Shown here piece by piece: positions 47,727-52,728 of a stretch of DNA of 64,000 nt. The stretch is from the NCBI GenBank assembly GCA_026707735.1, contig JAPOWH010000002.1, forward strand, positions 310,001-374,000, given 5' to 3'. Within the stretch, counting starts at the first letter, position 1, and the number at the start of each line of letters is the position of its first letter. The notes below the pieces were generated by a model. The model saw nothing but the letters and a program-made list of their open reading frames with translations. It searched no databases and had not been told where the DNA came from. The stretch is from Gammaproteobacteria bacterium (GTDB lineage: Bacteria; Pseudomonadota; Gammaproteobacteria; Pseudomonadales; Azotimanducaceae). Made by a program: the position numbers and the translations under genes.

Positions 47727-48890
47727 ATGACAGCAGCCAAGACGGTTCGAATTGACAATATTGCGAAATCGGGAATTGACAAAGCGAAGCTAGACATTCT
47801 TCGAACTCGTGCACGCAAGGAGGTGGAAGAGGGACTTTTGCCCTCCGTTCAGTTCGCTGTAGCTCGAAGCGGAGAGATTGTCTGGTCCGAGGCGATTGGA
47901 GCCGCAGGCATTGAAACGCTGTATCCCATATTTTCGTGTACGAAAGCTGTACTCGCCTCAGCCGCATGGCTGCTTATACAAGAAGGGCAATTGGACAAAG
48001 ATGAGCATGTTGTGGACGTCATTCCGGAATTTGCCACAAATGGCAAGCACGAAGTTCGGGTGGCCGACCTCTTTCTGCACACCGCCGGATTTCCCATGGC
48101 ACCCTTTCGCCCTCTCGATTGGGATGAGCGTGAGAAACGAATTGCGCGCTTCGCGCAGTGGAGGCTCAATTGGCCAACGCGTGAACGCTACGAATACCAT
48201 CCTTCGTCCTCAATGTGGGTCGTCGCCGAAATAATCGAAAGAAAGACGGGGCAGGATTTCCGAACCTTTATTCACGAGCGAATATTGGACCCACTTCGAT
48301 TGAACGATCTCTTTGTCGGTTTGCCGGATTCCCAAAACTATCGAGTAGCCACGCTGGAAATGGTTGGCGACCCATTAACCAGTGAAGACTACGCTAGGCT
48401 GAATCTGCCCGAACCGCCGGAAACGGAAGTTACCCCGGATGCCATATTGAGTTTCAATCGTCCGGACATCCGCGCAGTTGGGGTTCCAGGTGGAGGAGCC
48501 CTCGCCACCGCTGCGGCACTGGCGTTGTTCTACCAAGCATTACTGCATGGCGGCGCAAACGGGGGCGATAGAGTCTGGACTCGCCGGACACTGGAGTTTG
48601 GACTGAAAGTCATAAGCGGCGACTACAAAGAGCAACTAACGGGTGTTCCCGTGAATCGATCTTTAGGAGTGATCATTTCTGGAGATGAGCGTAGGAATTT
48701 TCGCGGATTCGGACATACGAATTCGGAAAAGGCGTTTGGACATGGAGGCGCCGGTGGCCAGATTGCCTGGGCTGATCCAAGGACGGGACTATCGTTTGCC
48801 TATGTGACAAACGGTCACGACAGAAATCCATTGCGTATGGGGAGACGAGGTGTCTCTCTATCTACCAAAGCAGCCGCTTTGGCCACCTAG
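47727..48890 (+). CDS. Beta-lactamase-fold serine hydrolase (class C / esterase VIII type)
   Basis: 387 aa. The nucleophile SxxK is [15 protein letters not shown] (about residue 70), with a Tyr-containing second motif [16 protein letters not shown] near 155 and a C-terminal [15 protein letters not shown] (HGG in place of KTG). These features fit esterase/carboxypeptidase-type members rather than a drug-resistance enzyme. Cytoplasmic by lack of a signal peptide. GGGAG precedes the ATG at 47727. Substrate unknown. Confidence 0.9.
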
Positions 48891-48907: not shown

Positions 48908-49198
48908 TTGACTAGAACGCGCACAATCAAAGGCCGGGGAGCAACGAACAGCCCCTCACCGCGGTACTTGAACACGTCAACGATACCCGAAGACGACGGG
49001 TGGGAGATTGATGCGCTCCTAGCCAAGAAATTTCCCTCTGACGAACCCACTACCGAGCTGTTCCCAGACCAAACAAAGAACCTAATCACTAGGAACCAGT
49101 CTCCGGACGTGCCGTTTGACCGTTCGATTAATCCCTACAAGGGCTGCGAGCACGGGTGCGTCTACTGCTTTGCTAGGGGAATTATAAAGAATACTTGA
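48908..49198 (+). pseudogene. PA0069-family radical SAM protein, 5' part, cut by an IS1595-type element
   Basis: Start at TTG 48908 (no ATG in this frame nearby). The N-terminal part has [13 protein letters not shown] and the complete cluster motif CEHGCVYC, three residues before the break. The native frame ends at FAR (49176); the ORF then runs through the transposon end to a TGA. The rest of the gene resumes at 51864. The native coding pieces, 269 + 865 nt, make 1134 nt (377 aa), a normal length, and read on in frame as PTHAFLDLSPGLDFE. Family enzymes are uncharacterised radical SAM proteins, sometimes annotated as splB-like. Confidence 0.9.
49169..49176 (+). repeat. Left copy of 8-bp target-site duplication
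   Basis: TTTGCTAG stands directly before the left terminal repeat and again directly after the right terminal repeat (51856-51863). The 8-bp length is characteristic of the IS1595 family. Confidence 0.92.
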
Positions 49199-49200
49199 CA
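49177..49200 (+). repeat. Left terminal inverted repeat of the IS1595-type element
   Basis: Begins GGGAATTATAAAG and ends ACTTGACA. All 24 bases match the reverse complement of 51832-51855; the match stops after this point. Its last six bases (TTGACA) form the -35 box of the transposase promoter. Confidence 0.95.
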
Positions 49201-49222
49201 AACTCGTCTCAATCACTACAAT
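49195..49222 (+). promoter_or_regulatory. Sigma-70-like promoter of the transposase, -35 box in the left terminal repeat
   Basis: TTGACA at 49195-49200, 16-bp spacer, TACAAT at 49217-49222. Seven nucleotides separate the -10 box from the ATG at 49230, so transcripts would begin at or next to the start codon (leaderless). The right end has the same arrangement. Confidence 0.8.
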
Positions 49223-49229
49223 CATCAGT

Positions 49230-50234
49230 ATGGAAAATGAGGTTGTAGCAATGAAGAAAGCACCCGGAAAGGCGCATAGAACAGGACTTACGCTTATGCA
49301 ACTGTTCGAGATGTTCCCGGACGAAACGGAGGCGTCCAAGTGGTTCGAGTCGATCTATTGGGAAGATGGTCGCAAGTGCGGAAAGTGCCACAGCGAGAAC
49401 ACAAGAGAGGTCAAGAGCAGAAAACCAATGCCCTACTGGTGCAAGGACTGCCGAAGCTACTTCAGCGTCAAGACGGGAACAGTGCTAGCCAACTCCAATG
49501 TGCCTTTGCGAAAGTGGGCTATTGCCATCTATCTCTGCCTGACCAGTCTCAAGAGCGTTTCAAGCATGAAGCTACATAGAGACATCGGCGTGTCGCAACC
49601 GACGGCGTGGTTCATGCTCCATCGCATTCGAGAAGCATGGTCGAACGAACCAGCGGAGGAATTTGACGGACCTGTCGAAGTGGACGAAACCTACATGGGT
49701 GGCAAACGCAAGAACATGAGCAATTCCAAACGAAAGGAATTGACAGGGCGCGGTCCGGTTGGCAAGACCGCCGTTGTGGGAGCGAAGGACAGAGCCAGCA
49801 ACGAAGTCAGGGCACAGGTTGTGGCTTCAACGGACTCGAGAACGCTGGTCGGGTTCGTTGAGGAGAACACATCGAAGGGTGCTATCGTCTACACGGACGA
49901 CTCGCCTTCCTACAACAGACTGTCAACGATGTTCAACAAGTACATTCACGAGAGCGTGAAGCACTCGGTTGGCGAGTATGTCAGAATGCAGGCTCACACC
50001 AATGGCGTGGAGAGCTTTTGGTCAATGCTGAAACGAGCGCACAAGGGGACGTTTCACAAGATTAGCCCGAAGCACCTGAACCGATACGTTCAGGAATTCG
50101 CGGGCAAGCACAACATCAGAGAGCTAGGAACGATCGGTCAGATGAGAGACACGGTTCTCCGGCTTGTCGGTCGGAACCTTCTCCACAGACGACTTGTCTC
50201 GGACAACGGATTGAGCTCCATGTCGAGGTCGTAG
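49230..50234 (+). CDS. IS1595-family (ISXO2-like) DDE transposase
   Basis: 334 aa. N-terminal zinc ribbon CGKCHSENTREV ... YWCKDCRSYFS, then the ISXO2-like catalytic domain with Asp in VEVDETYMGGKRK, Asp in VYTDDSPSYNRL and the final Asn/Glu motif AHTNGVESFWSMLKRAHKG. Full length with no frameshift, so it is likely active. Two starts are possible: ATG 49230, which lies 7 nt after the -10 box (leaderless), or ATG 49251, which has GAGG 8 nt upstream. Confidence 0.95.
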   Translation: MENEVVAMKKAPGKAHRTGLTLMQLFEMFPDETEASKWFESIYWEDGRKCGKCHSENTREVKSRKPMPYWCKDCRSYFSVKTGTVLANSNVPLRKWAIAIYLCLTSLKSVSSMKLHRDIGVSQPTAWFMLHRIREAWSNEPAEEFDGPVEVDETYMGGKRKNMSNSKRKELTGRGPVGKTAVVGAKDRASNEVRAQVVASTDSRTLVGFVEENTSKGAIVYTDDSPSYNRLSTMFNKYIHESVKHSVGEYVRMQAHTNGVESFWSMLKRAHKGTFHKISPKHLNRYVQEFAGKHNIRELGTIGQMRDTVLRLVGRNLLHRRLVSDNGLSSMSRS

Positions 50235-50303
50235 CAGAGCCTTCGCCAGCTTCTCCGGTGTCGCGCCCGCCAAATGCTTTTTGGGATCAAGCATCGCTTT
50301 CAT
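50124..50303 (-). CDS. Possible small ORF antisense to the transposase 3' end
   Basis: About 59 aa from ATG 50303: MKAMLDPKKHLAGATPEKLA and a basic rest. The composition looks protein-like rather than random and a similar small hypothetical protein seems to occur elsewhere, but this is memory, not a search. It overlaps the transposase end by 111 bp in antisense and has no strong ribosome site. It may be a third cargo gene or a shadow. Confidence 0.3.
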   Translation of the reverse strand: MKAMLDPKKHLAGATPEKLAKALLRPRHGAQSVVRDKSSVEKVPTDKPENRVSHLTDRS

Positions 50304-50338
50304 GACAACGATTTTAACATGGAAGCGGTATGTCAGAA

Positions 50339-50608
50339 TCACTCGTAGACGAAAGTAGGTGGAGTGAGCCTACGGAAATAGCCCTTGCGGTACTGGATGA
50401 ATTTAGAGCGTTGGGTCATCCTTTGGAGAGCCTTTTGGTGCTCTTCGATGAGTTGGTGCGACATATACTCGTTAGCGAGTTTGAGGACATGTTCACGCTC
50501 ACCACTAATACCACAACGCGGACAGCGAAGGCGATTGAGCTGACCTTCCACGACGACCTCTTCAGGAAGCGTCTTGCAGATGCGGCAAACAAGCGTCTTG
50601 GTACTCAT
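50339..50608 (-). CDS. Small zinc-ribbon protein, cargo of the element
   Basis: 89 aa. Two CxxC pairs (LVCRICKTL and LRCPRCGIS) form a zinc ribbon, followed by a helical basic tail (HQKALQRMTQRSKFIQY). The ATG at 50608 lies 10 nt after the methyltransferase stop with a good AGGAG ribosome site, so both form one transcript. Same family as a DNA- or protein-binding partner cannot be told from sequence. It may help target or regulate the MTase/HNH enzyme (inference). Confidence 0.75.
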   Translation of the reverse strand: MSTKTLVCRICKTLPEEVVVEGQLNRLRCPRCGISGEREHVLKLANEYMSHQLIEEHQKALQRMTQRSKFIQYRKGYFRRLTPPTFVYE

Positions 50609-50618
50609 ATTGAATCTC

Positions 50619-51802
50619 CTATTGATTGAGCTTGGCGACGAGGTATTCCATGCCTCGGTCTCCCTTGATGCTGTTGCAGGAACCACACAACAGCTGGAGA
50701 TTTGATATGTGGTCGGTGCCTCCCTGCGCCCTCGCAATGATGTGATCCACTTCGAGGTGCCGAGGCTCGAAGTGGGTCTTGCACCCGTTGCAGTCTCCGC
50801 CTTGCTCGCCATAGAGAGCCTTGCGGTTGTCAAGCGATCTGTACAGAGGAATCCTGCCAATGTCCGTGCGCTTGGGTATGTCGGTCCTGTGAACGATGCG
50901 GCGCATGAGATCGTCGATTCTCTGCCTGACGAGTTGAGCCGCCTTCTCTGAAACGTCGATTCCCACCCATTGGCGATTGAGAGCGTCGGCGGCCACGCAT
51001 GCGGTGGCGCACCCGCAAAACGGGTCCAGCACCATGTCGTCGTCGTTTGAACTCGCCTTGACAATACGGTCCAAAAGAGCAATCGGCTTCTGAGTCGGAT
51101 AGCCAACTCTTTCTCTTGCCATGTTGTTAATAGTCGGAATTCTCCAAACATCGTGCATACGCTTACCGAGCGGATTGGGTTTGTATTTATCTTTGTAGCC
51201 AGCGGGATTTCGAACGAAATTGCTAGTAGCAAGATAAGGCTCTCTAGCCCTGTCTTCGATGTAGGTGGCTAAGTCGAAACTCTTAACGTAAAACAGAAGC
51301 ACGTCATGCTTCCGACAATACGCTTTCTTGATATTGGAGGTTCCGTTGTAGTAGTGCCAAATGATTTCATTCCGAAAGGCCGCACGGGGGGGGTAAATAC
51401 ACAGTCCATGAGGAGCTTCAAGTAGTGGCTCATGGTCGGGTCGCAATGCAGGTAGATCGAGCCAGTGGGCTTCAAGAGCCGATGCATTTCGAGCAATCGC
51501 ACCGCCATGTAGATCAGGTACGACTTGTCGGAATTGGTCATGGCCGCCTGGATGACCCGGTTCAGCTTCGGGTGCTTTGCCTCTATCAGATCGAGCCAAG
51601 CAATGTCCACGTCCTGCAGCGACCAAGTGTCCTTGAACTCGGCGCCCGCCGCCTGCGAGCCTATCGGTGCGGCGTAGTTGGCGTTGCTATTGAAAGGCGG
51701 GTCGAGATAGATGAGATCAACCGACTCCGAGTTCATGCCTCGCATGATCGGGAGATTGTCGCCTGTCCATATGGTACGATTGACCCAATTCGCTTCGCTC
51801 AT
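50619..51802 (-). pseudogene. DNA adenine-type methyltransferase fused to HNH nuclease, frame broken at a homopolymer
   Basis: The 5' part starts at ATG 51802 (MSEANWVNRTIWTGDNLPIM) and carries the catalytic motif YLDPPFNSNANY (DPPF) and LLKPTGSIYLHCDP. At 51386-51393 eight G on the plus strand (eight C in the gene) shift the frame. The downstream frame continues with FRNEIIWHYYNGTSNIKKAY, the SAM-binding MVLDPFCGCATACVAA and, at the C-terminus, an HNH domain with CNGCKTHF, LEVDHIIARAQGG and LLCGSCNSIKGDRG. Motif order (IV before I) makes it a beta-class MTase, probably N6-adenine. Restored with six or nine C it would be about 394 aa. Either it has decayed, or it is switched by slippage, or the run is a sequencing error. 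Confidence 0.85.
51386..51393 (-). repeat. Poly-G/C run in the methyltransferase gene
   Basis: Eight consecutive G on the plus strand. The upstream and downstream coding frames join only if the run has six or nine bases. Homopolymer runs of this kind are classic slippage sites for phase variation. Confidence 0.8.
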
Positions 51803-51809
51803 GGAAGCG

Positions 51810-51837
51810 ATTGTAGGAATCAGGAATTGTCTGTCAA
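51810..51837 (-). promoter_or_regulatory. Sigma-70-like promoter of the cargo operon, -35 box in the right terminal repeat
   Basis: On the minus strand: TTGACA (51832-51837), 16-bp spacer, TACAAT (51810-51815), then 7 nt to the ATG at 51802. This mirrors the left end exactly (same boxes, spacer and start distance) although the spacer sequences differ. Transcripts would be leaderless. Confidence 0.8.
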
Positions 51838-51855
51838 GTATTCTTTATAATTCCC
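51832..51855 (-). repeat. Right terminal inverted repeat of the IS1595-type element
   Basis: Reverse complement identical over 24 bases to 49177-49200. It carries the cargo -35 box at its inner end. Confidence 0.95.
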
Positions 51856-52728
51856 TTTGCTAGGCCCACGCACGCTTTTCTCGATCTCTCTCCGGGGTTG
51901 GATTTTGAAACGAAGATTTTCTACAAGACGGCTCCCGTAGATCGGCTTCACGAAGCATTGAATGACCCCAAGTACGAATGTAAGCCGATAGCCATAGGAA
52001 CAAATACGGATCCCTATCAGCCCGCAGAGAAGAGTCTTAAAGTCACACGCAGCATTCTTGAGACATTGCTTGAATACAAGCATCCAGTAAGTGTCGTTTC
52101 CAAGGGAGTACTGATTTTGCGAGACTTGGACCTATTTCAGGAATTCGCCAAGCTGAATCTCATTAGCGTGGCCATTAGCGTCACCACTCTTCAGAACGAT
52201 CTAAAGGCGAGACTTGAGCCTAGGACTGCATCTCCTGGAGCACGGCTTCGTGTGTTGAGGACTTTGTCGCAAGCCAATGTACCCGTGGGAGTAATGGTCG
52301 CTCCCATCATTCCAATGCTTAACGATCATGAATTGGAGGAAATCATAGATCGTTCGACAGACGCGGGCGCAGAATTTGCAGGGTACGTCTTGATTCGATT
52401 GCCATTGGAGGTGCGACCGATGTTCGAAGACTGGCTCGACGAGCATTTTCCTCTGAAGGCTGGAAGAGTCATGAGTCGCATAAGAGACCTGCACGAGGGC
52501 AAGGCATATGATCCTCGGTTTGGTCACAGAATGCGCGGCACCGGCGTCTACGCGGAGTTGATTAGAAAACGGTTTGACATCGCGCGGTCCAATTGTGGAC
52601 TAAGCGTCAACGAAAGTGGCGACTTGGCCGCAGGCGAAGCAGGCAATCTTTTTGTAAATGCGAAAGGCGTAAAGCCGCTACGTACTGATTTGTTTAAACC
52701 GAGATATCAACAAACCTATCTGTTCTAG
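51856..52728 (+). pseudogene. PA0069-family radical SAM protein, 3' part after the insertion
   Basis: The first 8 bases are the right target duplication; native reading resumes as PTHAFLDLSPGLDFETKIFY and runs to the stop at 52728. It contains SAM-binding residues of the radical SAM barrel (TNTDPYQPAEKSLKVT, PISVVSKG-like PVSVVSKGVLILRDL, VAISVTTLQNDLKARLEPR) and a family C-terminus. An internal ATG-free start exists at 51898 (TTG), but a fragment without the Cys cluster would be inactive. Confidence 0.9.

Follow-up and report, generated by a model that had tools for sequence, protein, structure and literature searches.

A putative phase-variable, single-chain restriction–modification enzyme as the main cargo of an IS1595-family element

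Insertion sequences (ISs) of the IS1595 family, among them transporter ISs (tISs) such as tISCpe8 and MTnSag1, are described as having a DDE transposase, terminal inverted repeats (TIRs) of approximately 25 bp, an 8-bp target duplication and a passenger gene, tISCpe8 being a lincomycin resistance element (PMC5704250). Both mobilizable elements with restriction–modification (RM) genes and passenger-carrying IS1595 elements are known (PMC5704250, which cites Siguier 2009), and the location of RM systems on transposons or insertion sequences has been mentioned (PMC4176335). On the enzyme side, Type IIC/IIG proteins combine endonuclease and methyltransferase (MTase) in a single protein, most of them with an N-terminal PD-D/EXK domain and a gamma-class MTase, BtgZI being a variant with an alpha-class MTase and a C-terminal PD-D/EXK domain (PMC4081073). 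One phase-variable enzyme of Type IIG, Cj0031 from Campylobacter jejuni (1,243 aa, Eco57I and TaqI_C domains), is described as a one-chain RM enzyme with a polyG tract within its coding region and a variable target recognition domain (TRD), whose OFF state is predicted to abolish both activities (PMC4889913). Here, we analyse a 64,000-nucleotide stretch of a gammaproteobacterial genome (‘the window’; Azotimanducaceae, assembly GCA_026707735.1, contig JAPOWH010000002.1, positions 310,001–374,000), in which an IS1595-family element carries a passenger resembling a phase-variable RM enzyme.

We propose, with a probability that we put at approximately two in three, that this element is a tIS of the IS1595 family whose main cargo is a compact, probably phase-variable, single-chain RM enzyme, also found on IS1, IS6/IS240 and mini-elements. 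As read from sequence, a beta-class N6/N4 MTase with its own TRD and a C-terminal HNH domain would let one TRD direct marking and cutting alike. By marking the genome of its host and cutting DNA that lacks the mark, the enzyme would protect the carrier from incoming DNA and penalise loss of the element. Slippage in an intragenic G/C run would switch the frame, expression being then probably phase-variable; since a single chain holds both activities, they would be switched off together, avoiding self-killing. The same cargo is shared by IS1595, IS1-type, IS6/IS240-type and transposase-less elements in many phyla, related IS1595 elements carrying other RM genes. Cj0031 is the nearest working precedent, from which the enzymes studied here differ by their size (approx. 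390–490 aa), their beta-class MTase, their C-terminal HNH and their location on a transposon.

The element and its insertion site

The locus is organized as follows (window coordinates):

48908–49176, + strand: radical-SAM host gene, N-terminal part, interrupted (sister-genome comparison)
49169–49176: left copy of the target-site duplication (TSD), TTTGCTAG; in 10/10 sister genomes the radical-SAM gene continues through this position without interruption
49177–49200, + strand: left 24-bp TIR, GGGAATTATAAAGAATACTTGACA, identical to the right TIR
49230–50234, + strand: IS1595-family transposase, 334 aa, open frame (NF033547 and PF12762)
50339–50608, − strand: small CxxC..CxxC (zinc-ribbon-like) open reading frame (ORF), 89 aa, starting 10 bp past the stop of the HNH frame
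50619–51386, − strand: MTase–HNH, C-terminal part in the second frame, with TRD, motif I (DPFCGC) and HNH (PF01555, 111 bits; PF01844 HNH, 51 bits)
51269–51802, − strand: ORF of the MTase–HNH N-terminal part in the first frame, with DPPF motif IV (PF01555, 34 bits), homologous up to the run
51386–51393: homopolymer at the frame change, G8 on the + strand and C8 in the MTase sense
51832–51855, − strand: right 24-bp TIR, identical to the left TIR
51856–51863: right copy of the TSD, TTTGCTAG, exact repeat of the left copy
51856–52728, + strand: radical-SAM host gene, remainder, read from the second TSD copy (PF04055 at 51898–52725; sister-genome comparison)

The unit spans 49177–51855 (2,679 bp), and its perfect 24-bp repeats and exact 8-bp duplication are as the initial annotation, made from the sequence alone, had described them. 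It interrupts a radical-SAM gene that is present at E ≤ 1e-60 in 11 of the 18 genomes of the genus (own genome included); the duplicated 8 bp encode FAR within ...YCFARPTHAF..., and all 10 sister genomes with the gene read straight across the insertion point. Both the TIRs and the 8-bp target duplication of the IS1595 family are thus present, empty site included, and genes other than the transposase lie within one pair of IS ends, as in a tIS. These ends and empty sites support the view that the transposase moves the unit through its TIRs with 8-bp target duplication. The transposase, announced as intact and of IS1595 type, is indeed an open frame scoring 193.3 bits against NCBIfam IS1595 (NF033547, cut-off 75) and 133.9 bits against Pfam DDE_Tnp_IS1595 (PF12762, cut-off 27). 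A putative N-terminal zinc ribbon (PF12760) scores 22.6 bits, under the cut-off of 25.4, and C50, C53 and C71 are invariant across 14 related transposases.

The cargo had been annotated as an MTase fused to HNH plus a zinc-ribbon gene, opposed to the transposase. The N6_N4_Mtase and HNH domains are present in this orientation, but not in a single open frame: the TRD, motif I and HNH lie in ORF 50619–51626, in another frame than the N-terminal ORF, with the shift at the G8/C8 run (51386–51393), the sole G or C run of at least 8 in the window. Both this frame change at a homopolymer and the fact that such runs mark these genes had been overlooked. As in contingency genes, the homopolymer is located in the coding region at the frame change, and we propose that the window copy is a phase-variable gene in the OFF state, currently out of frame. 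Among the rows judged, only the window and L066 (= L323; loci of relatives are cited by L numbers) are clearly out of frame at the site equivalent to the run of the window. In its own genome, the element was detected at full length only once; this genome contains one other MTase–HNH element (L027; TIR 22/22, TSD TTCAACAG), with its frame shifted at a C10 run.

The small CxxC..CxxC ORF is also present and opposed to the transposase, but does not appear to be conserved cargo. It had no Pfam match above cut-off and no NCBIfam or PHROGs match, and tblastn against 118 loci returned no match beyond the element itself. Its role as a conserved partner was therefore rejected; in other elements with a convergent layout, the third small ORF appears by eye to be unrelated.

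Architecture of the enzyme and its G/C runs

The 51 non-redundant intact MTase–HNH relatives (387–491 aa) contain the MTase and the nuclease domain in one polypeptide. Their alignment displays a conserved core, a variable region at columns 141–220 (mean majority share of 0.30–0.48 per 20-column block) and a conserved HNH (0.61–0.82), some HNH residues being imposed by the selection pattern for this set. Among 42 aligned sequences, the HNH residues are invariant, including C338, C341, H365, Q370, K380 and G381, which were not imposed. When HNH was not imposed, 96 distinct complete cores could be divided into:

— Strict HNH (51) and HNH variant (13) C-termini.

— T5orf172/GIY-YIG-type (3) and Mrr-like (17) C-termini.

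— Unassigned C-termini (12).

Scanning the C-termini retrieved Mrr_cat above cut-off in L117, L324 and L099, and below it in L335 and L253, and T5orf172 above cut-off in L199. On the core tree, a ‘quick’ tree without bootstrap, five nuclease changes were counted with the 12 rows labelled ‘short’ left out, some of which have long Mrr- or HNH-like C-termini (e.g. L101, L102, L107, L306). At L099 (3793–8802, Poribacteria record), three adjacent MTase genes have Mrr-like C-termini, Mrr_cat being confirmed for one.

The TRD also evolves separately from the remainder of the protein, as it is strongly diverged in the close pairs L257/L258, L072/L078 and L041/L045, in which core and HNH are kept. Where dS, the synonymous rate, was computable, the non-synonymous rate dN was far below it (dN/dS values for L044/L084: 0.086/1.04 for the whole gene and 0.108/1.22 for HNH). 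Such exchangeable nuclease modules and TRD would be expected of a single-chain RM enzyme. An AlphaFold2 model of L042 (pLDDT 85.7, pTM 0.86) resembles the N6-adenine MTases CcrM, MboIIA and M.BceJIV. The MTase part is similar to these enzymes in both sequence and fold; judged by titles and lengths, no fused nuclease was seen in their entries. The domain order is DPPF, TRD, FCGC, then C-terminal HNH, a family with a beta-class MTase and an HNH, GIY-YIG-type or Mrr-type module, unlike the Type IIC/IIG majority (gamma-class MTase, N-terminal PD-D/EXK). Because of this domain class and order, and of its carriage by a transposon, we do not file the enzyme as a classical Type IIG, even though, by analogy, it probably works like one. 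In the 25 best PADLOC rows (out of 73 and 63, respectively), L255 and L200 are assigned to Type II or III methyltransferases rather than to IIG.

G/C runs of at least 8 proved to be approximately 20 times denser in the MTase genes than in their surroundings: 47 were counted in 191.9 kb of MTase regions (150 bp upstream included; 40 after dropping 7 from re-fetched copies, for which the base totals are uncorrected), versus 12 in the 1,091 kb remaining in the same loci, while the control loci had 4 in 312.5 kb. In a census of 131 MTase loci, 12 known duplicates being excluded beforehand, a coding run was present in 31. Of these genes, 17 were frameshifted (16 beside the run), versus 12 of the 100 that have none (Fisher p=3.1e-6). 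Of 23 internal runs, 16 lie at a frameshift and, by hand count, seven are in frame, close to the share of one third that drifting lengths would produce; in the remaining eight genes, the run is at the 5′ end, where the frame state is unreadable. Run density and the 16/23 runs at frameshifts suggest phase variation rather than plain decay, our first idea about the frameshift, which the run enrichment and the link between runs and frameshifts have weakened. At L052, three G/C runs (10, 10 and 19) are located just upstream of the MTase at a contig end, and may either have a regulatory role or be an artefact of assembly.

Recurrence on mobile elements and among hosts

Relatives of the C-terminal part were sought in genome contigs, and the best 80 of 103 were kept; with one viral contig and two overlapping own-genome loci, they form a set of 83 loci. 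Around the MTase, TIRs matching at 18/22 or more with an exact TSD were detected in 20/83 loci, from several phyla and one archaeon, versus 0/70 controls pairing the left flank of one locus with the right flank of another; a looser rule gave 25/83 versus 2/70. The recurrence of MTase–HNH genes inside related terminal repeats at different sites, part of the check proposed with the initial annotation, is therefore established, and the opposite outcome, in which relatives of the element never carry such cargo, clearly fails. Of the 80 loci kept, 25 contain an IS1595 transposase or a fragment of one. Relative to the transposase, the MTase is convergent (window, L039, L066, L094), tandem (L051, L055, L060, L065) or divergent (L073). 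Other carriers include two transposase-less mini-elements (L050, 1,251 bp; L259, 1,322 bp), L054 with an IS1-type transposase, and L096 (2061–4891, Nitrososphaerota record), in which a relative of the MTase–HNH lies with an IS240/IS6-type transposase between TIRs. Transposases aside, no conserved neighbour of the MTase occurs in more than five loci.

We then compared the cargo of IS1595 elements in three sets:

— In the genus, the window transposase yielded 72 matches in 18 genomes, of which 62 besides its own were examined (60 regions plus L027 and L028, the nine weakest omitted). Among the 63 resulting groups, 30 are complete elements, including 17 with a DNA MTase and three bare ones.

— Among 22 genomes picked for MTase–HNH, 18 had IS1595 matches (61 in total). 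The 40 regions examined contain an MTase in 22/30 complete elements, or 15/23 once seven bait elements are removed by hand.

— As a phylum control, the Pfam family was used to search 299 genomes, and the 40 regions examined cover 42 of the 64 matches outside the own genome. Out of 41 groups, 24 are complete, and only one carries an MTase (L356: N6_Mtase + Methylase_S). As 20/24 of these elements exceed 1.7 kb, passengers as such are common.

MTase cargo is thus enriched both in the genus (17/30 versus 1/24; Fisher p=3.4e-5) and in the bait-free set (15/23 versus 1/24; p=8.5e-6), in a comparison where the phmmer seeds used to call MTases came from the first two sets, so that control MTases may be missed (Pfam was run on 10 control proteins), and where test and control transposases come from different searches and differ in TIR type, the control not being habitat-matched. 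Related IS1595 elements also carry RM-type partners, namely a HaeIII-type endonuclease (L231, L236), PDDEXK_5 (L246) and PDDEXK_11 (L316), as well as Methylase_S with HSDR_N/N6_Mtase (L211), HNH (L200), T5orf172 (L198) and a C5 methylase whose partner matches no family (L254). These several kinds of RM genes, and an MTase core associated with three kinds of nuclease module, support the earlier suggestion of a ‘selfish modification/nuclease unit’.

Relatives of the MTase–HNH are found in Pseudomonadota, Actinomycetota, Chloroflexota, Acidobacteriota, Rhodothermota, Cyanobacteriota, Poribacteria, Latescibacterota, Nitrososphaerota and others. At E ≤ 1e-30, a threshold that also lets in relatives without HNH, a match is present in 15/18 genomes of the genus (own included), 1/19 of other genera of the family and 0/21 elsewhere in the order. 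Bin prefixes APA, CAR, COS and RHO, which we take to denote the sponge species of a sponge metagenome-assembled genome (MAG) study (PMC8163846), and Synechococcus spongiarum among the titles suggest that many close relatives are sponge symbionts, some distant ones not being of that kind. One clade (SH-aLRT 98) unites L041, L050, L051 and L054, i.e. three phyla, the carrier being IS1595, IS1-type, a mini-element or none found. A single relative was retrieved from viral contigs (49% identity, residues 64–157).

Competing explanations and possible significance

Several observations weigh against the reading as a mobile, switchable RM enzyme. The run cut-off of 8 was chosen after the run of the window had been seen, and codon shuffling in the 51 intact genes gave a weaker result (mean 1.8, maximum 7 runs, versus 7 observed), so that the case for the runs rests on the flanking-DNA comparison and the frameshift link. 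One TGA was counted in the aligned stretch of L027 that spans its C10 run; homopolymer errors are possible in assemblies, and switching cannot be shown from assemblies alone. As to mobility, 33 of the 63 transposase groups of the genus have no ends by the criteria used. The initial annotation held that cargo genes found without terminal repeats would speak against it, which partly applies: 55/80 MTase–HNH loci have no IS1595 transposase within the stretch examined, and ends were not seen in most loci, a short-TIR search of the transposase-less ones giving no general answer. Several of these 55 loci are on contigs ending close to the gene, and such loci fit solo or decayed copies and cut contigs. 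Finally, the phylum labels of the core tree (62/96 rows labelled) change 34 times, for a minimum of 16 and a shuffled mean of 44.1 (0/200 shuffles as low); hosts are therefore mixed, but not randomly, and cross-phylum spread is not free. Matches in plasmids (22 records) and phages (29 records) all show less than 60% identity, and the 15 listed of each end at or before residue 327 of 397, short of HNH. Phages or plasmids as carriers between cells were rejected on account of these identities.

Four other explanations were considered. The cargo could be decaying, MTase–HNH being a pseudogene or its frameshift a homopolymer assembly error, with no switch. The window copy is indeed out of frame, and real decay also occurs, as among the 100 run-less genes the 12 frameshifted ones are accompanied by 20 with stops in the aligned stretch; yet an error process would not concentrate G/C runs approximately 20-fold in these genes relative to the rest of the same stretches, across bins with many naming schemes, and dN is much lower than dS in the most closely related pair of intact genes. 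We consider this explanation quite unlikely. We consider it rather unlikely that the protein is an orphan MTase with an HNH-fold DNA-binding module, evading resident restriction or tuning transposition by marking the element or its host, without cutting. HNH-type Cys4 zinc sites are described as structural (PMC4081073), and some relatives with short C-termini are devoid of a nuclease module (e.g. L090, L091, L093); however, the HNH residues are invariant, unimposed ones included, and HNH is replaced by other nuclease folds, which would not be expected from binding alone.

The initial annotation had also envisaged a homing-like role, in which the HNH would cut empty target sites and drive insertion. 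Homing nucleases do use both HNH and GIY-YIG folds, as is generally known, but insertion into a conserved site of the nuclease was not observed: complete elements differ in their 8-bp TSDs and lie at different sites within their own TIRs, with an IS transposase and matching TIRs in all but the mini-elements, and the nuclease, replaced by other folds in some relatives, forms one protein with an MTase whose TRD is variable. Homing by HNH was consequently rejected, as highly improbable. An explanation based on host-serving defence is compatible with both the enzyme and the switch, and differs in the beneficiary: the element would be kept because RM protects symbionts in sponges rich in phages and mobile elements, with no selfish stabilisation. 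Sponge microbiomes are described as enriched in RM genes, which are laterally transferred between symbiont taxa, in MAG-based passages that name no vehicle (PMC8163846). Sequence does not separate this explanation from the selfish one; SocA_Panacea and PemK-type genes in control IS1595 elements represent other possible stabilisation modules, and we regard a purely host-serving role as somewhat unlikely.

If a switchable restriction enzyme does travel with its own transposon, such elements would be one means by which RM genes are transferred laterally in sponge microbiomes. Combining both activities in a single polypeptide would spare the carrier any harm from on/off switching, and could explain the spread of a selfish cutter through unrelated hosts; tract length, methylation motif and restriction are predicted to co-vary in native populations. 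More tentatively, IS1595 transposons, with IS1-type, IS6-type and transposase-less derivatives, may constitute a shared delivery route, across phyla and from bacteria to archaea, in sponge symbionts for phase-variable single-chain restriction enzymes of a new architecture, a beta-class MTase with an exchangeable C-terminal HNH, GIY-YIG-type or Mrr-type nuclease, the element population forming a community-wide pool of switchable restriction barriers. A literature search by title and abstract start, with subscription papers and preprints mostly outside its reach, found among the entries listed no report of phase-variable RM carried by IS1595 elements.

Other passengers were also noted. In control elements (L370, L371, L387, L369), we observed SocA_Panacea antitoxin-like (L370, L371), PemK toxin-like (L387) and ParA-like genes, and stabilisation modules could perhaps be a general theme of IS1595 cargo. 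L309 (39–3005) carries a KilA-N domain protein, and the cargo of L209, L220, L222 and L230 has no family assignment (one protein tested each). In the own genome, L028 (1395–6463) is a 5,069-bp IS1595 element with perfect TIRs and TSD and a different cargo of several small ORFs, one of which was tested without a Pfam match. Lastly, a beta-lactamase-family gene (PF00144, window 47727–48890) adjoins the interrupted radical-SAM gene.

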